In this document: one piece after another, positions 1 to 52,768 of the stretch
Layout of the letters: each line of letters opens with the position of its first letter
Position numbering within the stretch: the first letter of the stretch is position 1
The notes under the pieces: generated by a model
The model's input: only the letters and a program-made list of their open reading frames with translations
Databases searched by the model: none
What the model was told of the DNA's origin: nothing
DNA from: a virus
Reading direction: 5' to 3' (one strand)
Virus record (IMG/VR): IMGVR_UViG_3300006919_000075
Span: 1 to 52,768 of that record
Length of the DNA: 52,768 bases
Translations under genes and position numbers: made by a program

Positions 1-165
1 CGATATGGACTCGATATGGACTCGATATGGACTCGATATGGACTCGATATGGACTCGATATGGACTCGATATGGACTCGATATGGACTCGATATGGACTC
101 GATATGGACTCGATATGGACTCGGTTTGGACTCGGTTTGGACTCGGTTTGGACTAGATCTGGACA
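1..165. repeat. 11-bp tandem repeat array, left part
   Basis: Eleven perfect copies of CGATATGGACT fill 1-121. Three copies of the variant CGGTTTGGACT follow (122-154), then one degenerate copy (155-165). The same perfect unit fills the right end of the window, so the array spans the genome junction. The 11-bp period is close to one helical turn and is open in every + frame as a repeating MDSIWTRYGLD peptide. I read that as a by-product of the period, not a gene. Decay of copies at the outer edge is typical of a slipping tandem array. A role as packaging, replication or terminal site is inference. Confidence 0.95.
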
Positions 166-3016: not shown

Positions 3017-3355
3017 GTTTGTCTTTCGTTTGTTGTCTCGTTGTTGTTGTTGGTATGTTCGCCAATTCCGCCGTCCCGACAGGACACATATCCTAGCACA
3101 CTCCGGAGGCGTCACCGTCGATTTCTCTACCGTGTTCCCGTGAGTAGGCCACATTCCGCCCAAAAAGGCCGAATTCAGGGCGATCTGGCGCGACGTCCGG
3201 ACCAAGCGCAAGGACAACTCGGCGGCGAGCCATAAGTCGTTGCCTATCAGGCACTTTCCGGAAATGCGACGCCAATTAAATACAACAAATCTTGTGCGAG
3301 TACCGGATCGCCCAACCTGGCTTAAGTCGTTGGCGTGGTGGCGTTTGCGGATTTG

Positions 3356-3371
3356 TTGCAAATCGTTTGCA
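3356..3371. promoter_or_regulatory. Palindromic site TTGCAAATCGTTTGCA (copy 1 of 3)
   Basis: A near-perfect inverted repeat TTGCAAA-TCG-TTTGCA, missing only the last base of the 7-3-7 palindrome. It recurs at 41092-41108 (perfect) and 32395-32411 (one mismatch per arm pair). All three copies are just upstream of genes or operons. It has the size and symmetry of an operator for a dimeric regulator. The regulator is unknown. Confidence 0.55.
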
Positions 3372-3397
3372 GAGCAGCTTTGACTGGTGGGCTCAAA

Positions 3398-3460
3398 AAA
3401 AGAGGGTGGGGGAGTGCCTAAGACACCCATTGGACATGCAATGTCCCACCCCCCTCTTTT
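3398..3460. other. G-rich inverted repeat with inner hairpin
   Basis: AAAAGAGGG (3398-3406) pairs with CCCTCTTTT (3452-3460). Inside it lie partly pairing G- and C-tracts and a perfect hairpin GGACAT-GCA-ATGTCC (3432-3446). The T-run on the plus strand (3457-3460) is short. It could act as a terminator or attenuator in either direction, insulating the divergent operons. Confidence 0.55.
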
Positions 3461-3530
3461 GGGGTAACCATATTATATACATGGGGCGTGAGATTTTTTG
3501 GAAAATTTCGGATCGAGGTCAAAGATCTGT

Positions 3531-3559
3531 TTGACACATCTCCTCTTCTGTGAAATATT
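3531..3559 (+). promoter_or_regulatory. Sigma70-like promoter for the rightward operon
   Basis: TTGACA (3531-3536), a 17-bp spacer, then AATATT (3554-3559). The ATG of the first rightward gene is only nine bases after the -10, so the transcript would start at or within a base or two of the start codon (leaderless or nearly so). It is the best consensus promoter in the window. Confidence 0.6.
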
Positions 3560-3568
3560 CTTGTCGAA

Positions 3569-3793
3569 ATGAGCCACCTCAAGCCTGACTTTGACCCTGA
3601 TCTCCAACCCGCAGACGCGTCCTCCGGAATGCCCAGAGGACTCAATGTCTCGGAGTTCAACCGAGCGTTCCGCAAGTGGGAACGGGAGAAGGAAATAGAC
3701 CTTGGACCGACTTCGTGGGGCTCGCGAAACCGGTCCTCAAAGTCTTCGTCACCAGTTTGTGATGAAGGGACTGAGCTAAAAAAAACAGTCTAA
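3569..3793 (+). CDS. Hypothetical protein (74 aa), first rightward gene
   Basis: Not recognised. A 74-aa polar protein: Asp/Pro-rich N-terminus (residues 5-25), a basic helix around 28-42 (EFNRAFRKWEREKEID) and a Ser/Lys-rich tail. It is the first gene behind the promoter at 3531-3559, with almost no leader. It is followed by the nested hairpin at 3804-3854 that precedes the HNH endonuclease. Confidence 0.6.
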   Translation: MSHLKPDFDPDLQPADASSGMPRGLNVSEFNRAFRKWEREKEIDLGPTSWGSRNRSSKSSSPVCDEGTELKKTV

Positions 3794-3803
3794 ATACAAC
3801 GCC

Positions 3804-3854
3804 GGGAGCGAGCGACGTTCACGACTGATCATTCGATCAGAGACGCTCGCTCCC
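3804..3854. other. Nested hairpin upstream of HNH endonuclease
   Basis: Outer arms GGGAGCGAGCG (3804-3814) and CGCTCGCTCCC (3844-3854) are perfectly complementary. Inside, CTGATC (3825-3830) pairs with GATCAG (3835-3840) across ATTC. No T-run follows; instead a CA-rich 25-nt leader runs to the ATG at 3880. It may define a processed 5' end, or belong to the mobile HNH cassette. Confidence 0.8.
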
Positions 3855-3879
3855 AATCACCACCAAGCCGGAAAAAACT

Positions 3880-4440
3880 ATGAGCTTCATTCACGTCCAC
3901 ACTCGAAACTACACTTACGTCCCATTAACTCAGGGACACTTCGCGGTTGTCGATCTCGGCGATTTACCGGAAATCAATTTAAGGTCGTGGTCAGCCTATA
4001 CCACTCCTCACGGCCAAGTAAGAGCCCAAGGAAACTTCAGGCGTCCCGATGGCAGCTACCGGAGCATTGACATGGGACGATCGCTCATTCGCCCGACTCG
4101 GGGCAGGGTAGTTGACCACATCAACAGAAACCCGCTGGACAACCGAAGATCAAATCTCCGGGCGATCACTCACCAACAAAACCTTTCCAACCAAGGTCTT
4201 CGAAAAGACGCTCGTCCCGGAAGGCGAGCGAAGACATCTAAATTCAAAGGAGTATCCTTCATCCGGAGAGCCTCAGTCTTAACCAAGCCATGGGTGGCCA
4301 GATTTCTACACAAGTATAAGAGACACGAGATCGGGACTTTCGCCACTGAGCGCGAAGCCGCTCTTGCCTACGATAGGGCAGTCGTTAAGGCGAAAGGCAA
4401 GTTTGCGGTAACCAATAAGTCACTCGGGTTGCTGCGTTAA
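3880..4440 (+). CDS. HNH homing endonuclease with AP2 domain
   Basis: A 186-aa free-standing phage HNH endonuclease of the HNH-AP2 type. The HNH core is at about 77-100: VVDHINRNPLDN with Asp79-His80, then NLRAIT. A C-terminal AP2-like DNA-binding domain covers about 120-180, with KFKGVSFI, WVARF and GTFATEREAALAYDRA. Such genes cut a specific allele and spread by repair. No flanking host gene looks interrupted, so it appears to be an intergenic insertion. It is preceded by the nested hairpin 3804-3854. The second HNH-AP2 gene (47327-48268) has the same domain order but is longer and not a recent copy. Confidence 0.9.
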   Translation: MSFIHVHTRNYTYVPLTQGHFAVVDLGDLPEINLRSWSAYTTPHGQVRAQGNFRRPDGSYRSIDMGRSLIRPTRGRVVDHINRNPLDNRRSNLRAITHQQNLSNQGLRKDARPGRRAKTSKFKGVSFIRRASVLTKPWVARFLHKYKRHEIGTFATEREAALAYDRAVVKAKGKFAVTNKSLGLLR

Positions 4441-4455
4441 CAGATCGAATAGCCT

Positions 4456-4878
4456 ATGAACCCAACCCCATCAGTTAGCCTCATCCCGCTCTACGGCGGA
4501 CGCACCGCGTGGCACCTCGACACGGACTACCCGCTCCAATGGTCCCATGGCATGAATCGCTTTCGATTCACGATCCCAAAGGGCTTCACTTTCGACGGCG
4601 CGAGCATCCCTTGGTTTTTGCCCTTTGGACGTGGCAGGCTGGGGCTTGTTGCCCCGTTGGTTCACGATTACCTGATTGCGATGGGCGGAGTGGTCGACGT
4701 TGAGATCTCCCTGTGCGACGGATGGTATTTCCTGGGCGAGCGGCAATTCTCCCGCCGAGATGCTGACAGACTCTTTTTCCGAATCCTCCGCGAGCGCGGC
4801 GTTCGACCTCGATGGTTACGTCGGTGGGCGTTTCGATTCGTCCGGCTCTGGAGCTTAATCAGGGGAGACTTTTACTAG
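4456..4878 (+). CDS. DUF1353 family protein
   Basis: The 140-aa product carries the DUF1353 signature: a beta-rich N-terminus, then FTFDGASIPWFLPFGR (about 48-63) and VHDYLI (about 76-81). The motif G-A-S-I-P followed by a conserved H-D-Y is typical. DUF1353 proteins occur in many phages near lysis or tail genes and their biochemical role is not established. The start ATG 4456 follows the HNH stop by 15 bases. The C-terminus is Arg/Trp-rich (RPRWLRRWAFRFVRLW), perhaps membrane-interacting. Confidence 0.85.
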   Translation: MNPTPSVSLIPLYGGRTAWHLDTDYPLQWSHGMNRFRFTIPKGFTFDGASIPWFLPFGRGRLGLVAPLVHDYLIAMGGVVDVEISLCDGWYFLGERQFSRRDADRLFFRILRERGVRPRWLRRWAFRFVRLWSLIRGDFY

Positions 4879-4896
4879 GGCGATGAGTATTCGCCC
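4878..4896. other. Short hairpin overlapping DUF1353 stop
   Basis: GGGCGA (4878-4883) pairs with TCGCCC (4891-4896) over a 7-nt loop. A 35-nt, A/C-rich, apparently unstructured leader then runs to ATG 4932, with AACAAACACAT just before the start and no SD. Confidence 0.6.
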
Positions 4897-4931
4897 GAAC
4901 ACATAAACCACAAGTATAGGAACAAACACAT

Positions 4932-5279
4932 ATGAATACAGACGAACTAACACTCGGACAGATCAAAGAAATCAAGAGCCTTCTCGGCCATACAACCGCA
5001 GCGGATAGCCATCCCTTCGAGGTTGGCAAACCCTACATGCTACGGACGGTAACCCACATCGACGTGGGGCGGATCAAGGCCGTTTACCAAACCGAAATCG
5101 TCCTCACCGATGCGGCATGGGTGGCTGATACCGGACGATTCAGCGAGCAATGGGATAAAAGCGGCGACGATGCTTTTAGTGAGTTGGAAATGTTCCCACG
5201 CGATCAAGATGTGATTGTCGGTCGGGGCGCTCTGATCGACGCGACTCAGCTTAAAGAGCTTCCAACAAAGACGAAGTAA
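4932..5279 (+). CDS. Hypothetical phage protein (115 aa)
   Basis: A 115-aa protein. It starts with a helical segment (ELTLGQIKEIKSLLG, 4-18) and continues as a beta-rich fold (VGKPYMLRTVTHIDVGRIKAV, then EIVLTDAAWVADTGRF). This pattern, a helix with GQIKE then a region giving VGR and TDAAWIADTGR, is common in uncharacterised tailed-phage proteins. No function is known to me. It has an A/C-rich leader and no SD, and it precedes the hairpin that opens the first hexamer array. Confidence 0.8.
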   Translation: MNTDELTLGQIKEIKSLLGHTTAADSHPFEVGKPYMLRTVTHIDVGRIKAVYQTEIVLTDAAWVADTGRFSEQWDKSGDDAFSELEMFPRDQDVIVGRGALIDATQLKELPTKTK

Positions 5280-5335: not shown

Positions 5336-5584
5336 ATGAACGCCACATTATTGCGATCCGGTCATGTCCATATCCAGAGCGGGAGCAGGAGCAAAAGCTG
5401 TATCAGGAGCTGGAGCTGTAGCAGTAGCAGGAGCAGGAGCAGTAGCTGGAGCAGGAGCAAAAGCTGGAGCGGGAGCAGGAGCTGGAGCTGTATCAGGAGC
5501 AGGAGCTGTAGCAGGATCCGTAGCAAAAGCAGGAGCTGTATCAGGAGCTGGAGCAGTAGCTGGAGCTGGAGCAGGATCATATGA
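5336..5584 (+). CDS. Array 1 unit 1 mini-ORF (82 aa)
   Basis: Head MNATLLRSGHVHIQS, then about 65 residues of alternating X-Ser with X mostly Arg, Ser, Trp or Cys, plus a few Lys and Ile. Relative to the other units the head carries a 6-bp insertion (two residues, HI). It ends in RII with its stop overlapping the next ATG. Translation is unproven; see the array entry. Confidence 0.4.
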   Translation: MNATLLRSGHVHIQSGSRSKSCIRSWSCSSSRSRSSSWSRSKSWSGSRSWSCIRSRSCSRIRSKSRSCIRSWSSSWSWSRII

Positions 5585-5859
5585 ACGCAACATTATTGAG
5601 AGCCGGTTATGTCCAGAGCAGATTCAGTAGCAGTAGCTGGAGCGGGAGCTGTAGCAGGAGCAGGAGCTGTAGTATGAGCTGGACCTGGAGCAGGAGCTGT
5701 ATCTGGAGCAGGAGCTGTATCAGGAGCTGGAGCTGTAGCAGGAGCTGGAGCTGGAGCAGGAGCAAAAGCTGGAGCGGGAGCAGGAGCTGGAGCTGTATCA
5801 GGAGCAGGAGCTGTATCAGGAGCAGGAGCAATAGCTGTAGCTGGAGCAGGATCATATGA
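5581..5859 (+). CDS. Array 1 unit 2 mini-ORF (92 aa)
   Basis: Longest unit. Head MNATLLRAGYVQS followed by RFSSSSW and an (X-Ser)n tail that includes the block SCSMSWTWS, also present in units 5, 6 and 8. It ends in RII with ATGA coupling to unit 3. The second plus frame is closed by TGA inside that block, so only this frame runs the full unit on the plus strand. Confidence 0.4.
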   Translation: MNATLLRAGYVQSRFSSSSWSGSCSRSRSCSMSWTWSRSCIWSRSCIRSWSCSRSWSWSRSKSWSGSRSWSCIRSRSCIRSRSNSCSWSRII

Positions 5860-6080
5860 ACGCAACATTATTGAGAGCCGGTTATGTCCAGAGCAGATTC
5901 AGTAGCAGTAGCAGTAGCAGGAGCAGTAGCAGTAGCAGGAGCAGTAGCAGTAGCAGTAGCAGGAGCAGTAGCAGTAGCAGGAGCAGGAGCTGTAGCAGGA
6001 GCGGGAGCTGGAGCTGGAGCAGGAGCTGTATCAGGAGCTGGAGCAGGAGCGGGAGCTGGAGCTGGAGCAGGATCATATGA
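5856..6080 (+). CDS. Array 1 unit 3 mini-ORF (74 aa)
   Basis: Its first 39 bases are identical to those of unit 2. The tail starts with a long run of GTAGCA hexamers, giving a Ser-rich stretch (RFSSSSSSRSSSSS) before Arg and Trp appear. It ends RII, coupled by ATGA to unit 4. Confidence 0.4.
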   Translation: MNATLLRAGYVQSRFSSSSSSRSSSSSRSSSSSSSRSSSSSRSRSCSRSGSWSWSRSCIRSWSRSGSWSWSRII

Positions 6081-6247
6081 ACGCCACATTATTGAGAGCC
6101 GGTTATGTCCAGAGCAGATTCAGTAGCAGTAGCAGGAGCAGGAGCTGGAGCAGGAGCTGTATCTGGAGCAGGAGCTGTATCTGGAGCAGGAGCTGGAGCT
6201 GTAGCAGGAGCTGGAGCTGGAGCAGGAGCAGGAGCAGGAGCATATGA
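6077..6247 (+). CDS. Array 1 unit 4 mini-ORF (56 aa)
   Basis: Head MNATLLRAGYVQS, then RFSSSSRSRSWS and an (X-Ser)n tail with two CIWS blocks. It ends in RSI with its stop at 6245-6247 overlapping ATG 6244. Same architecture as its neighbours. Confidence 0.4.
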   Translation: MNATLLRAGYVQSRFSSSSRSRSWSRSCIWSRSCIWSRSWSCSRSWSWSRSRSRSI

Positions 6248-6456
6248 ACGCCACATTATTGCGATCCGGTTATGTCCAGAGCAGGAGCTGTAGTATGAGC
6301 TGGACCTGGAGCAGGAGCTGTATCTGGAGCAGGAGCTGTATCAGGAGCTGGAGCTGTAGCAGGAGCTGTAGCAGGAGCTGGAGCTGGAGCAGGAGCAGGA
6401 GCAGGAGCTGTAGCAGGAGCTGGAGCAGGAGCTGGAGCAGGAGTAGGAGCATATGA
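6244..6456 (+). CDS. Array 1 unit 5 mini-ORF (70 aa)
   Basis: Head MNATLLRSGYVQS (CGATCC in place of AGAGCC), then RSCSMSWTWSRSC and an Arg/Trp/Cys-Ser tail ending RSI. Its stop overlaps the start of unit 6. Confidence 0.4.
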   Translation: MNATLLRSGYVQSRSCSMSWTWSRSCIWSRSCIRSWSCSRSCSRSWSWSRSRSRSCSRSWSRSWSRSRSI

Positions 6457-6647
6457 ACGCCACATTATTGCGATCCGGTTATGTCCAGAGCAGTAGCTGT
6501 AGCTGTAGCAGGAGCAGGAGCTGTAGTATGAGCTGGACCTGGAGCAGGAGCTGTATCTGGAGCAGGAGCTGTATCTGGAGCGGGAGCTGGAGCTGGAGCT
6601 GTAGCAGGAGCTGGAGCTGGAGCAGGAGCAGGAGTAGGAGCGTATGA
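6453..6647 (+). CDS. Array 1 unit 6 mini-ORF (64 aa)
   Basis: Its first 39 bases equal those of unit 5. The tail begins SSCSCSRSRSCSMSW and ends RSV, with ATGA coupling to unit 7. Several GGAGC hexamers directly upstream place SD-like GGAG 3 and 9 bases before the ATG, as for most internal units. Confidence 0.4.
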   Translation: MNATLLRSGYVQSSSCSCSRSRSCSMSWTWSRSCIWSRSCIWSGSWSWSCSRSWSWSRSRSRSV

Positions 6648-6850
6648 ACGCCACATTATTGAGAGCCGGTTATGTCCAGAGCGGGAGCAGGAGCTGGAGT
6701 AGGAGCAGGATGGGGCGTAGGAGCTGGAGCTGGGGCAGGAGTAGTAGAAGTAGCAGTAGCAGGAGCAGGGGCGGGAGCTACAGCGGGAGCTGGACCAGGA
6801 GCTGGATCAGGAGCTGTAGCTGGAGCTGTAGCTGGAGTAGGAGCGTATGA
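6644..6850 (+). CDS. Array 1 unit 7 mini-ORF (68 aa)
   Basis: Head MNATLLRAGYVQS, then a tail less regular than the others, with GRMGRRSWSWGRSS and later WTRSWIRS. The array is most degenerate here. It ends RSV and is coupled by ATGA to unit 8. Confidence 0.4.
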   Translation: MNATLLRAGYVQSGSRSWSRSRMGRRSWSWGRSSRSSSSRSRGGSYSGSWTRSWIRSCSWSCSWSRSV

Positions 6851-6969
6851 ACGCAGCCATATTGAGAGTCGGTTATGTCCAGAGCAGATTCAGTAGCTGG
6901 AGCAGTAGCTGTAGCTGTAGCAGGAGCAGGAGCTGTAGTATGAGCTGGACCTGGAGCTGGAGCGAATAG
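6847..6969 (+). CDS. Array 1 unit 8 mini-ORF (40 aa), closing the array
   Basis: Variant head MNAAILRVGYVQS, a short tail with the shared SCSMSWTWSWS block, and a normal TAG stop at 6967-6969 instead of ATGA coupling. The head variant MNAA(I/V)L is the form used throughout most of array 2. Confidence 0.4.
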   Translation: MNAAILRVGYVQSRFSSWSSSCSCSRSRSCSMSWTWSWSE

Positions 6970-7001
6970 GAGCTGATAACCGAAGTCACTATCTAACGAT
7001 T

Positions 7002-7118
7002 ATGCCAAAACCAAACCGAGAAGGAGAGACATACGACGAAGCCGAGGCGCGCAAGGCCAAACGGCGGCGGGTTTGGGCCTACAAGATGATGAAGATTCGA
7101 AAGGAAAATGCGAAATGA
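7002..7118 (+). CDS. Small basic protein (38 aa)
   Basis: A 38-codon ORF, MPKPNREGETYDEAEARKA then a Lys/Arg-rich helix and KMMKIRKENAK. Its TGA overlaps the ATG of the next gene (7115) by four bases, which supports it being translated. It starts 32 bases after array 1 ends. No function is recognised. Confidence 0.5.
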   Translation: MPKPNREGETYDEAEARKAKRRRVWAYKMMKIRKENAK

Positions 7119-7375
7119 GAAGAACTGGCCCCACAGACGAACAGATCATTCAAGCGTTCAAAGGGACCGACTTCGGGCCAGAAATCAACGAGTCTGTGAG
7201 CAATAAAAAGCTCCTGATTGCTGCCGCTCTCTTCAAACGAGTTTGTGATTACGGCGATGGCAGCACTATTACTCGTATTATTGAAGACCTTGGGCTAGTC
7301 AGCGCAAGGAGTGGTTGCCCGTTTATTTTTGCTCTGAGATGGGCGTATCGAATTCTGATTCCACCAAACTATTGA
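7115..7375 (+). CDS. Hypothetical protein (86 aa)
   Basis: Starts at ATG 7115 (MRRTGPTDEQIIQAF), chosen for its ATGA overlap with the upstream 38-aa gene; an earlier in-frame ATG at 7073 lies inside that gene. The 86-aa product looks mostly helical, with an AAALFKRVCDY stretch (about 40-50) and a hydrophobic C-terminus FIFALRWAYRILIPP. A winged-helix or small alpha domain is possible, but it is not recognised. Confidence 0.65.
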   Translation: MRRTGPTDEQIIQAFKGTDFGPEINESVSNKKLLIAAALFKRVCDYGDGSTITRIIEDLGLVSARSGCPFIFALRWAYRILIPPNY

Positions 7376-7376
7376 A

Positions 7377-7670
7377 ATGAGTGAAAAACTAGCCAACTGC
7401 CCCGTCTGTGGTGGGGAATGCTTCAGTCAGGTATATAGAGACTTCGTAGATGTTAAGTGCTACGCAGATGGCTGTCCCTACTCGGTTCAGTCGCCCACCA
7501 AAGCCCAAGCCATCGCCCACCACGAGCGACTAGCGGGTCGGTGTCGGTGGGAATACATAAACGAGCAGAAACAGGCAACGAAAACTAGTTGCGAATCTGC
7601 GGTGAACCTACCGTTCTCAGGGGCGTATTGCCCACACTGCGGCAAACAGATTGAGGTGGTGAAAGAATGA
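7377..7670 (+). CDS. Double zinc-ribbon protein, Lar-like
   Basis: The 97-aa protein begins with CPVCGGECF (residues 8-16). Later come KCYADGCPYSVQSPTKAQAIAHH, the C-x-n-C plus aligned A/H helix of Lar-type restriction-alleviation zinc ribbons, and a final CPHCGK (about 86-91). Phage Lar-like ribbons are often small and their targets unknown; the original Lar relieves type I restriction. The stop overlaps the ATG of the next gene by four bases. Confidence 0.7.
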   Translation: MSEKLANCPVCGGECFSQVYRDFVDVKCYADGCPYSVQSPTKAQAIAHHERLAGRCRWEYINEQKQATKTSCESAVNLPFSGAYCPHCGKQIEVVKE

Positions 7671-7903
7671 GCATCAAAGCCTTTAAAGTGATCTACAGGT
7701 ACAATCGCGGGTTCGATTCAATCGTTCTTACTCACACGCCTGGACGTGCCAAGCATAAGGCTTGGCTAGCCCTTAACGATGTCTGTTGGAGACCCACCTA
7801 CGCAGATTTGACGGTGAGAAGAGCGCCAGAATTCGACAGCTTAGCAAGTAAAATTCAGCCCGATCTTGCGGTTGGTTTGACGTGGGCTCAAGCGAATGAG
7901 TAA
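7667..7903 (+). CDS. Hypothetical protein (78 aa)
   Basis: A 78-aa protein beginning MSIKAFKVIYRYNRG, then SIVLTHTPGRAKHKAWLAL and YADLTVRRAPEFD. It looks like a small alpha-beta fold of the phage family with an xTPGxAKxxA turn, whose function is unknown. It is coupled by ATGA to the zinc-ribbon gene before it and overlaps the next small gene by eight bases. A TTCGATTC sequence inside it resembles a tRNA T-loop by chance. Confidence 0.65.
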   Translation: MSIKAFKVIYRYNRGFDSIVLTHTPGRAKHKAWLALNDVCWRPTYADLTVRRAPEFDSLASKIQPDLAVGLTWAQANE

Positions 7904-8054
7904 ACCTTTGTGCAGGCATTGCAAGGGCTCACGTAGCTACTACAGTTCCGAGCATGATGATTACCGGTGTTGGTATTGTCATAGGCCGATCAGCAAGATT
8001 GTGATTAAGGAGGTGGAGGACCGGAGTCCACGGAGGCTCTGGAGGAAATTTTAA
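7896..8054 (+). CDS. Small zinc-ribbon protein (52 aa)
   Basis: A 52-codon ORF with CRHC at residues 6-9 and CWYC at 25-28, a classic two-knuckle zinc ribbon. A charged C-terminal tail (IVIKEVEDRSPRRLWRKF) follows. It overlaps the upstream gene by eight bases and ends ten bases before array 2 starts. Confidence 0.6.
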   Translation: MSKPLCRHCKGSRSYYSSEHDDYRCWYCHRPISKIVIKEVEDRSPRRLWRKF

Positions 8055-8064
8055 CGTGACTAAT

Positions 8065-8271
8065 ATGAACGCAGCCGTATTGAGAGCCGGATTTAATCGG
8101 AGCGGGGGCCTGGGCAGGAGATGGACCAGGAGCAGAAGCGGAAGCAGGAGCATGAGAATGAGAATGAGCAGGTGCAATAGCTGGTGCAGGAGCAGTAGCA
8201 GGAGCAGTAGCGGGAGCTGGAGCGGGAGCAGTAGCGGGAGCGGGAGCAGTAGCGGGAGCGGGATTAAATGA
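8065..8271 (+). CDS. Array 2 unit 1 mini-ORF (68 aa)
   Basis: Head MNAAVLRAGFNRSGG, then LGRRWTRSRSGSRSMRMRM and an (X-Ser)n tail where X is often Gly. It ends GIK with the TGA overlapping ATG 8268. An in-frame ATG at 8056 is possible but not part of the conserved head. Confidence 0.4.
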   Translation: MNAAVLRAGFNRSGGLGRRWTRSRSGSRSMRMRMSRCNSWCRSSSRSSSGSWSGSSSGSGSSSGSGIK

Positions 8272-8354
8272 ACGCCGCCATATTGAAAGCCGGAATTAAC
8301 CGGAGCTGTAGCTGTAGCTGTAGCTGGAGCAGGATCAGGAGCAGGAGCATATGA
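8268..8354 (+). CDS. Array 2 unit 2 mini-ORF (28 aa)
   Basis: Shortest unit: head MNAAILKAGINR and a 16-residue tail of SCSCSCSW type ending RSI. The stop overlaps ATG 8351. It shows that the head and coupling are kept even when nearly all hexamers are missing. Confidence 0.35.
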   Translation: MNAAILKAGINRSCSCSCSWSRIRSRSI

Positions 8355-8557
8355 ACGCAACTATAATTAGAGCAGGTCATGTCCAGACCGGCAGCAGGAG
8401 CATGAGCGGGAGCAGGATCTGGAGCAGGAGCTGGAGCGGGAGCAGGAGTGGGAGCAGGCGCCGGAGCTGGAGCGGGAGCGATAGCGGGAGATGGGGTGGG
8501 AGCTTTAGTTGGAGCCGGATCGGGTGCTGGACCAGTAGCAGGTGCGGGAGCATATGA
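8351..8557 (+). CDS. Array 2 unit 3 mini-ORF (68 aa)
   Basis: Divergent head MNATIIRAGHVQT, then a Gly/Ser/Arg-rich tail with WGGSFSWSRIG. The hexamers here are the most degenerate of array 2. It ends GSI and couples by ATGA to the next unit. Confidence 0.35.
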   Translation: MNATIIRAGHVQTGSRSMSGSRIWSRSWSGSRSGSRRRSWSGSDSGRWGGSFSWSRIGCWTSSRCGSI

Positions 8558-8790
8558 ACGCAGCCATATCGAGAGCAGGATACGTCCAGAGCTGGAGCTG
8601 TAGCTGTAGCAAGAACTGGAGCTTGATCAGGAGCAGGAGCAGGAGCAGGAGCAGATTCAGTAGCAGGAGCAGGAGCAAAAGCTGGACCAGGAGCTGGAGC
8701 TGTAGCTGTAGCTGTAGCTGTAGCTGTAGCTGGACCTGGAGCAGGAGCATGAGCTGTAGCTGGACCAGGAGCAGGAGCAGGCTAATATGA
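8554..8790 (+). CDS. Array 2 unit 4 mini-ORF (78 aa)
   Basis: Head MNAAISRAGYVQS, then SCSCSKNWSLIRS and a long Arg/Cys/Trp-Ser tail ending RLI. Its stop overlaps the start of unit 5. The codons TAC and GCA in the head differ from the other units at third positions without changing the residue. Confidence 0.4.
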   Translation: MNAAISRAGYVQSWSCSCSKNWSLIRSRSRSRSRFSSRSRSKSWTRSWSCSCSCSCSCSWTWSRSMSCSWTRSRSRLI

Positions 8791-9017
8791 ACGCAGCCGT
8801 ATTGAGAGCCGGATTTAATCGGAGCGGGGGCCTGGGCAGGAGATGGACCAGGAGCAGAAGCGGAAGCAGGAGCATGAGGATGAGAATGAGCAGGTGCAAT
8901 AGCTGGTGCAGGAGCAGTAGCAGGAGTAGGAGCGGGAGTAGGAGCGGGAGCTATAGCTACAGCGGGAGCTGTATCAGGTGCTATAGCAGGAGCAGGAGTA
9001 GGAGTAGGAGCATATGA
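8787..9017 (+). CDS. Array 2 unit 5 mini-ORF (76 aa)
   Basis: Almost a copy of unit 1 of this array over the first about 140 bases. The single difference seen (AGA to AGG in MRMRM) is silent in this frame but changes Ser to Pro on the minus strand. It ends RSI with its stop overlapping ATG 9014 of an ordinary zinc-ribbon gene. Confidence 0.4.
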   Translation: MNAAVLRAGFNRSGGLGRRWTRSRSGSRSMRMRMSRCNSWCRSSSRSRSGSRSGSYSYSGSCIRCYSRSRSRSRSI

Positions 9018-9292
9018 ACCTAGACCCAACGCCAGAACAGATAGCGGAGAACGACCGACAACGCGAGGCAATCTACGCCGAACAAGAAAGCATGAGCACC
9101 AAGACAGACACAAGCGACTATAAACCGTGCCCCTTCTGCGGATCCCAACCGGTAAGGAGAGTGGAAGGAACGCTGTTGTCTGTCTATTGCCCACAGTGCG
9201 TGACGGTTGGATTTCGAAATCACACGGATTTAGGATGTCTAGCTGACAACGAATGGAATACCAGAACAAGAAAGAAGTATGAGAGACTATAA
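9014..9292 (+). CDS. Lar-like zinc-ribbon protein (92 aa)
   Basis: N-terminal acidic helix (PEQIAENDRQREAIYAEQES), then a Lar-type ribbon: CPFCGSQPVRR (about 39-49), VYCPQC (about 57-62) and a closing NEWNTR (about 79-84). This C-P-F-C-G, then C-x2-C, then W-N-x-R layout is that of the Lar restriction-alleviation family. Start 9014 is coupled to the last array unit; an internal ATG (residue 27) before STKTD could serve a shorter form. Role in blocking host restriction is inferred from family only. Confidence 0.75.
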   Translation: MNLDPTPEQIAENDRQREAIYAEQESMSTKTDTSDYKPCPFCGSQPVRRVEGTLLSVYCPQCVTVGFRNHTDLGCLADNEWNTRTRKKYERL

Positions 9293-9494
9293 AGAAGTAG
9301 AGAAGAAGGCCGATAAGGCCGAGACGGAAATCAACGACCGCATCAGAGAGATGCTGTTGGATGTCATGATCGCAATCGAAGAACGCGATGAGATAATTGA
9401 GGATCTTGAACACAAAGTTGAGATCTTGACCGAGGAAAAAGAGGACGCCGAAAACCGGCTGGAAGAGATTAGGGGGAGGAGATCTTACGGATGA
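9279..9494 (+). CDS. Coiled-coil protein (71 aa)
   Basis: A 71-aa, highly charged, Glu/Lys-rich protein with clear heptads from about residue 5 to 65 (DEIIEDLEHKVEILTEEKED), so an extended coiled coil is predicted. It overlaps the zinc-ribbon gene by 14 bases and the peptidase gene by four. Its last codons contain the GGGGGAGGAG purine run that gives the next gene a strong SD. Function unknown. Confidence 0.7.
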   Translation: MRDYKEVEKKADKAETEINDRIREMLLDVMIAIEERDEIIEDLEHKVEILTEEKEDAENRLEEIRGRRSYG

Positions 9495-10342
9495 AAAGAG
9501 GAAAACGAAAATCAACAAGGCGCGTGGCACGCGAGAAACTATTCAACGTCAAGCCGTCACCTGAGCGAGAGCGCGACTGGTCGATTCGGAAGGCGGGATT
9601 CAAAAAGAAACAAGTCGGCGAACTTCCGAGTCGTTACACCGTCTATGGCAATGCTGGATACAGTAGCTGGTTCGCTCGCGAGGTTGAGAGCCAAGGGCAG
9701 ACGGGGTCATGTGTGGGCTTCGCGATGGCATCTGTGTTGCGCTACCATTTAGTGATGAGCGGCAAAGCGACTCGCAGCAAATCATATCACGGTAAGCCGA
9801 GCGAGCAGTGGCTTTGGCAGGCTTCGAAGGAGATGGATCAGTTTACCGCTCATCCTTCGACGATGCTCATGTGGGACGGGACTTATCTGAAAACGGTCTT
9901 GGACGTTGCACGCAAATGGGGTTGCGTCTCTCGTAAAACGCTCCCGTTCGGCGAGCTGATCTATGAGAAAACCGACAAGGTTCTCAAGGCGGCATCTGAT
10001 TGGAAGATCAAAAGCTATCATGCGGTCAGTCCGTGGGTCGAAGGCGAAAGTCAGTTTAATGAGGCGGGTATGAAATGGTGGCTCTTCCACCACGGTCCTG
10101 TCCTCACCAGGCTCAACGTCAATGAGTCGTTCATGAAGGCGAACAAACGCACAGGCGTTCTCGATGACACGAGTAAGAAGACGAGCTACGGGCACGCTGT
10201 TTGCGTTGTCGGCTACTCAGACGATGGCGTTCTGATCAGAAATTCGTGGGGCCGACTCTGGGGCGATCAAGGCCATGTATGGGTATCGTGGCGGTATGCG
10301 CGGCTGTTCCTCACCGAAAGTTACGGAATCACAATGGACTAG
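9491..10342 (+). CDS. Papain-like (C1 family) cysteine peptidase
   Basis: A 283-aa protein with the full papain set: oxyanion Gln68 six residues before catalytic Cys74 (SQGQTGSCVGFA), His235 in YGHAVCVVGY, and Asn251 in IRNSWGRLWG. The GYSDDGVLIRNSWG block is highly typical. There is no signal peptide. The first 45 residues are basic and may be a short propeptide or DNA-binding tail. A strong SD (GGAGGAG) precedes ATG 9491. Phage papain-like enzymes are rare. It could process virion or host proteins, or cut cell-wall peptide bridges, and context does not decide. Confidence 0.88.
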   Translation: MKRGKRKSTRRVAREKLFNVKPSPERERDWSIRKAGFKKKQVGELPSRYTVYGNAGYSSWFAREVESQGQTGSCVGFAMASVLRYHLVMSGKATRSKSYHGKPSEQWLWQASKEMDQFTAHPSTMLMWDGTYLKTVLDVARKWGCVSRKTLPFGELIYEKTDKVLKAASDWKIKSYHAVSPWVEGESQFNEAGMKWWLFHHGPVLTRLNVNESFMKANKRTGVLDDTSKKTSYGHAVCVVGYSDDGVLIRNSWGRLWGDQGHVWVSWRYARLFLTESYGITMD

Positions 10343-52660: not shown

Positions 52661-52768
52661 AATATTGGACTCGATATGGACTCGATATGGACTCGATATG
52701 GACTCGATATGGACTCGATATGGACTCGATATGGACTCGATATGGACTCGATATGGACTCGATATGGA
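52661..52768. repeat. 11-bp tandem repeat array, right part
   Basis: A degenerate copy (52661-52671) is followed by eight perfect CGATATGGACT units (52672-52759) and nine bases of a ninth. The last 97 bases (52672-52768) equal the first 97, so the ends overlap inside the array. The true unit number cannot be known from this window. Confidence 0.95.

Follow-up and report, generated by a model that had tools for sequence, protein, structure and literature searches.

A phage gene with a predicted Sm fold and two arrays totalling thirteen repeat-peptide mini-ORFs

Why would a phage genome carry two arrays of tiny, low-complexity open reading frames chained by overlapping stop and start codons? 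The question was raised by an earlier note on a virus record of 52,768 bases (hereafter the window, i.e. the whole stretch of DNA analysed), which carries phage-type genes for a DNA polymerase, a helicase and a tail protein. The note described 13 mini-ORFs sharing a conserved head and an (X-Ser)n tail, and proposed either a variable peptide family or a long translational relay feeding the zinc-ribbon gene that follows. Our analyses indicate that the arrays are best explained as an expanded copy of the second half of a widespread and apparently undescribed two-gene phage cassette, the first half of which is a small gene lying just upstream and predicted to fold like the RNA-binding Sm proteins of animals and archaea. 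The function of this pair is not known.

We first verified the arrays themselves, and the observation was confirmed in full. Array 1 comprises eight units, all on the forward strand (5336..5584, starting with MNATLLRSGHVHIQS followed by (SX)n, then 5581..5859, 5856..6080, 6077..6247, 6244..6456, 6453..6647, 6644..6850 and 6847..6969, the last ending in TAG), and array 2 comprises five, also on the forward strand (8065..8271, 8268..8354, 8351..8557, 8554..8790 and 8787..9017). All 7 + 4 internal junctions are ATGA, with the stop TGA inside the next ATGA, and unit 13 overlaps in the same way the ATG at 9014 of the downstream gene (9014..9292, +). The SD-like GGAG hexamers described before the internal starts are also present. 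All 13 lengths are 3 mod 6, so the two-codon register is never lost. Some corrections and additions emerged: the first unit is separated by 56 nt from the gene upstream (4932..5279, +), which turned out to be the key partner; unit 9 may start at an in-frame GTG at 8056; and the two arrays are separated by about 1.1 kb of ordinary small genes (6970-8064). Moreover, units 9 and 13 share a 192-nt block (the first 192 nt of unit 13) at 94% identity, indicating that units copy within the genome and that expansion is by duplication. In the tails of the window, X also includes Cys, Ser, Ile and Lys.

In the window alone, the case for coding is open. The Ser-X frame contains 0 stops in all 13 tails, against 14 and 81 in the other two forward frames, but two of the three reverse frames are also nearly open (1 and 4 stops) because hexamer repeats seldom make stops, and openness alone therefore does not settle coding. 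In contrast, relatives settle it. A search with the head retrieved IMGVR_3300020195_000087 (L009; contigs compared in this analysis are designated by L numbers), where mini-ORFs MNAVMFRANYLP... have the same Ser-R/W/G tail but a different DNA hexamer (TCACGG/TCATGG instead of AGCAGG/AGCTGG), and lie downstream of a homologue of the window gene 4932-5279, which we call the anchor (115 aa, LTLGQIKEIKSLLG...VIVGRGALIDA).

In order to establish how general this arrangement is, we searched with an alignment of anchors and found 79 viral loci. In 74 of these an X-Ser mini-ORF follows the anchor directly, and in 64 stop and start overlap, 59 of them at the -4 NTGA overlap (47 ATGA, 12 GTGA) and 5 at TAATG. 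The same was observed in the MAG contigs L095, L097, L100-L103 and L105 and in Manatee Spring phage MW202573. MAG contigs holding the cassette (Planctomycetota, Bathyarchaeota and others) may be misbinned phage contigs, and accordingly no host is assigned. A reverse search, started from the head motif and not from the anchor, gave five contigs, three of which show the anchor directly upstream, while the other two begin at the contig edge (one of them, L199, keeps an anchor-like C-terminus). The association is not without exceptions: a few anchors lack the mini-ORF (L059, L082, L088, L092), some mini-ORFs follow unrelated genes (L069, L019), and in the window itself the anchor and the first unit do not overlap. 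If the X-Ser mini-ORF family is defined by a head MNxAxLRxGxxxS, a start overlapping an upstream stop and Ser at alternate positions, the 13 units of the window belong to it, and 74 of 79 relatives have the mini-ORF after the anchor. Most relatives have one unit, whereas L083 has seven, L066 five, and L060, L040 and L069 three. The window, with 13, is the largest array seen, and its closest relative (L016, anchor 75% identical) has one.

Codon usage indicates that the peptide is under selection. The head consensus is MNAA(V/I)LR(T/A)G(F/Y)DxS, in short MNAAxLRTGFDxS, and its residues R7 and G9, which are invariant by definition because they also served to select the heads compared, use all 6 Arg and all 4 Gly codons. 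Ser codons are nearly uniform within an array (mean 95% homogeneous) but differ between phages, the main codon being TCG, TCA, AGC or TCT in 30, 14, 11 and 7 of 62 loci, respectively. AGC and TCN cannot interconvert in one step, yet the peptide pattern is the same. An SD-like motif precedes the mini-ORF in 44% of loci, against 12% at control positions in the anchor gene, largely because the C-terminal PRSQK of the anchor is usually written with (A/C)GG-AG(C/T). However, the tails prefer NGG codons far beyond the anchor gene (Gly GGG 91% vs 21%; Arg CGG/AGG 90% vs 25%), which pure protein selection does not explain; one-step mutation from TGG inside a quickly turning-over hexamer array could account for it, but a nucleic-acid constraint is not excluded. 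TCC and AGT are never the main Ser codon.

The earlier note had proposed asking whether, in related phages, the head and the ATGA junctions persist while the tails vary, and comparison of near-identical phages shows that they do. L200 and L202 have a 100% identical anchor gene but tails of 60 and 74 aa, L038 and L048 have 99.4% anchor identity and tails of 88 and 34 aa, and L038 and L045 (99.7%) differ by an internal reshuffle, with the same head and junction in each pair and the Ser-X alternation retained. The interpretation offered in the note is supported only in part: that of a variable peptide family is strongly supported, whereas that of a translational relay is not.

What, then, is the anchor? 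Pfam, PHROG and PDB sequence searches returned nothing significant. An AlphaFold2 model built from 42 sequences (pLDDT 85.8) matched by Foldseek only Sm/LSm proteins among the top 50 PDB chains (probability 1.00, best E 1.6e-3, target TM mostly 0.5-0.78). Profile comparison by hhalign links the anchor, as a distant relative, to DUF6948 (PF22253; prob 98.1, E 1.1e-13 over 63 columns), a phage protein family of unknown function, and a separate model of DUF6948 (pLDDT 88.5) again matched only Sm/LSm proteins in the top 50. DUF6948 proteins are also among the best structural matches in viral proteins. Nevertheless, the window anchor matches no Pfam family, and so does not match DUF6948 above the Pfam gathering score, and none of 39 relatives matched the DUF6948 model at E 0.1, although L013 and L014 do match. 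The Sm assignment rests on fold prediction, as no Foldseek PDB hit passes E 0.001, no PF01423 match was found in the window at E 10, and hhalign with a few archaeal LSm sequences found no sequence homology (prob 0.1-0.2). Where these profiles were aligned, the LSm Asn of NLVL faces Glu, so RNA binding in the classical pocket is doubtful. An Sm fold is thus a supported prediction for the anchor, but that it is an LSm protein is not shown.

A second flavour of the same plan is found with DUF6948. In 77 of 84 loci, DUF6948 genes are followed, usually with overlap, by an ORF with a different head (MSNLLKIKHHGH or MSKLNKP) and a (Gly-S/Y/D)n tail. A few of the 77 are weaker or more distant matches, and six of the seven exceptions are loci with under 60 nt, or no sequence, after the gene. 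Isolated phages of Pectobacterium, Dickeya, Vibrio, Iodobacter and Chlorobiaceae have it. Contig L060 carries a DUF6948 + Gly-X pair immediately followed by the anchor and three Ser-X units. The same plan therefore occurs with two tail chemistries, which argues for a functional pair and not an accident of one repeat.

Taken together, we favour, with moderate confidence, the view that the arrays are a 13-fold expansion of the second gene of a two-gene cassette, in which the first gene encodes a small protein with a predicted Sm/LSm fold and the second a short translated protein with a conserved 13-residue head and a dipeptide-repeat tail where Ser alternates with mostly R, W or G. As the second gene starts inside the stop codon of the first in most relatives, the two are probably made together by terminating and restarting ribosomes. 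The head would dock on the Sm-fold protein, or on a shared target or ligand, and the tail would be a flexible, disordered, multivalent, basic and aromatic arm whose order of residues matters little but whose alternation and composition matter, as for low-complexity tails that bind nucleic acid or drive clustering. Retained alternation with free order is what is expected if composition and spacing matter. In this view, tails grow and shrink in whole hexamers, and in this phage the whole second gene has also been duplicated in tandem, which keeps the ATGA coupling and raises copy number and variety. Neighbouring genes include helicases, exonucleases, RecT/Erf annealing proteins and SSB, making a role with RNA or ssDNA in replication or recombination plausible. 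What the analysis demonstrates is the architecture, its conservation, protein-level selection and the rapid turnover of tails; the Sm fold is a prediction, and coupling, docking, RNA or ssDNA binding and clustering are our inferences, made without peptide, ribosome or structural data. If correct, the cassette would give phages an Sm-like protein with a paired low-complexity partner, a small genetically tractable model for how repeat tails work and evolve, and a case where peptide composition is conserved while order turns over quickly.

Among alternative explanations, the one that survives best, although we consider it unlikely, is that the tails are hypervariable decoy, toxin-like or surface peptides diversifying under an immune or receptor arms race, with multiple units supplying a repertoire. 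This would be consistent with the rapid tail change between near-identical phages, the up to 13 units per genome and the basic, Trp-rich composition (mean net charge +0.14 per residue). However, variation is mostly in the order and number of the same three residues and not in new residues, no signal peptide was noted, and the association with the Sm-fold gene is tight.

Less likely still, the hexamer arrays could act at the DNA or RNA level, as a recombination or slippage hotspot or a GG-rich R-loop or quadruplex element, the open frame being incidental. The period-6 GG pattern, the near-exclusive NGG codons, the frequent replication and recombination neighbours and the nearly open reverse frames of the window speak in its favour. 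In contrast, between phages the DNA hexamer changes while the Ser-X peptide stays, the head is conserved as protein with free synonymous change, and the start codon is placed exactly in the anchor stop in 64 of 79 loci, with SD enrichment. Predicted RNA folding and quadruplex energies showed no consistent difference from synonymous recodings, with few quadruplexes and none in the window tails tested. The minus-strand Pro-Ala frames are not kept in relatives, where one reverse frame is stop-rich, and the DNA similarity of the arrays to (Pro-Ala)n genes of Vibrio phages 1.185.O and D164 reflects unrelated repeats on the other strand.

Finally, a relay metering ribosomes into the Lar-like zinc-ribbon gene at 9014 (PF14354, E 1.5e-5, below its cut-off) is very unlikely despite the unbroken ATGA chain ending in its ATG, since the homologue of this gene in L016 (L016:4330, N-terminal similarity) has no array before it and the single mini-ORF there instead overlaps the upstream Sm-fold gene, other relatives end the array before various genes or none, and the conserved coupling is with the upstream gene, so that the zinc-ribbon gene is probably not a conserved part of the cassette, even if the last overlap may still couple translation in this one phage.

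DUF6948 is already catalogued as a domain, but its pairing with a dipeptide-repeat gene, the Sm-fold prediction and the tandem arrays were not found in the databases searched, nor did literature searches for DUF6948 or for such repeat genes in phages, limited to open-access papers and thus leaving out subscription papers and preprints, return anything relevant. The two-gene architecture, shared by well over 100 phage contigs, many from uncultured phages, appears to be undescribed, and its repeat genes are left unannotated in some deposited phage records (for example Iodobacter phage PhiPLPE).

How does the cassette compare with known systems? The amino-acid tandem repeats of Borgs (PMC9879509) are likewise fast-evolving in-frame tandem repeats giving disordered regions on mobile elements, but they are not tied to one partner gene, and no conserved head or start/stop-coupled mini-ORF array is noted in the abstract of that study. 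DUF6948 shares with the anchor the N-terminal motif LTLGQIKEIK, the predicted Sm fold and a downstream overlapping dipeptide-repeat ORF, whereas the C-terminal half differs, as do the head and tail of the partner. With Sm/LSm proteins (archaeal SmAP, spliceosomal Sm, Hfq), the anchor shares a predicted N-terminal helix plus five bent strands, but not the Sm1/Sm2 sequence signature; formation of an RNA-binding ring oligomer was not assayed here. A more speculative reading, which we hold as no more than a tentative possibility, is that phages encode their own Sm-type ribonucleoprotein or condensate system in which the disordered, sticky tail is a separate, translationally coupled and interchangeable subunit of Ser-R/W/G or Gly-S/Y/D flavour, free to expand by hexamer slippage and gene duplication, an independent invention of what eukaryotic Sm proteins do with RG tails. 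SmB, SmD1 and SmD3 carry arginine-glycine tails, RG dipeptides of SmD1 and SmD3 appearing in the literature, and an Sm core is there likewise associated with a dipeptide-repeat disordered tail. In eukaryotes, however, the tail is on the same chain, whereas here it is a separate, overlapping, duplicated gene with Ser-X or Gly-X repeats.

On contig L060, one of the viral relatives, a DUF6948 + Gly-X cassette was found to be directly followed by an anchor + three Ser-X mini-ORFs (3288-5050). Ser-X mini-ORFs follow genes other than the anchor on contigs L069 (3198-3957) and L019 (3806-3970), so the mini-ORF can move on its own. In the Ser-X tails of 62 loci, Gly and Arg are written almost only as NGG, unlike in the neighbouring gene.

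The same 11-bp tandem repeat (CGATATGGACT) is present at both contig ends of the window (1-164 and 52666-52768), indicating either a circular-genome junction inside the repeat or short repeated termini. Moreover, this phage carries at 9491-10342 a gene for a cysteine protease of the papain family (C1; PF00112, E 4e-14), and, just upstream of the cassette, at 3880-4440, an HNH endonuclease with an AP2 domain, a likely homing endonuclease.
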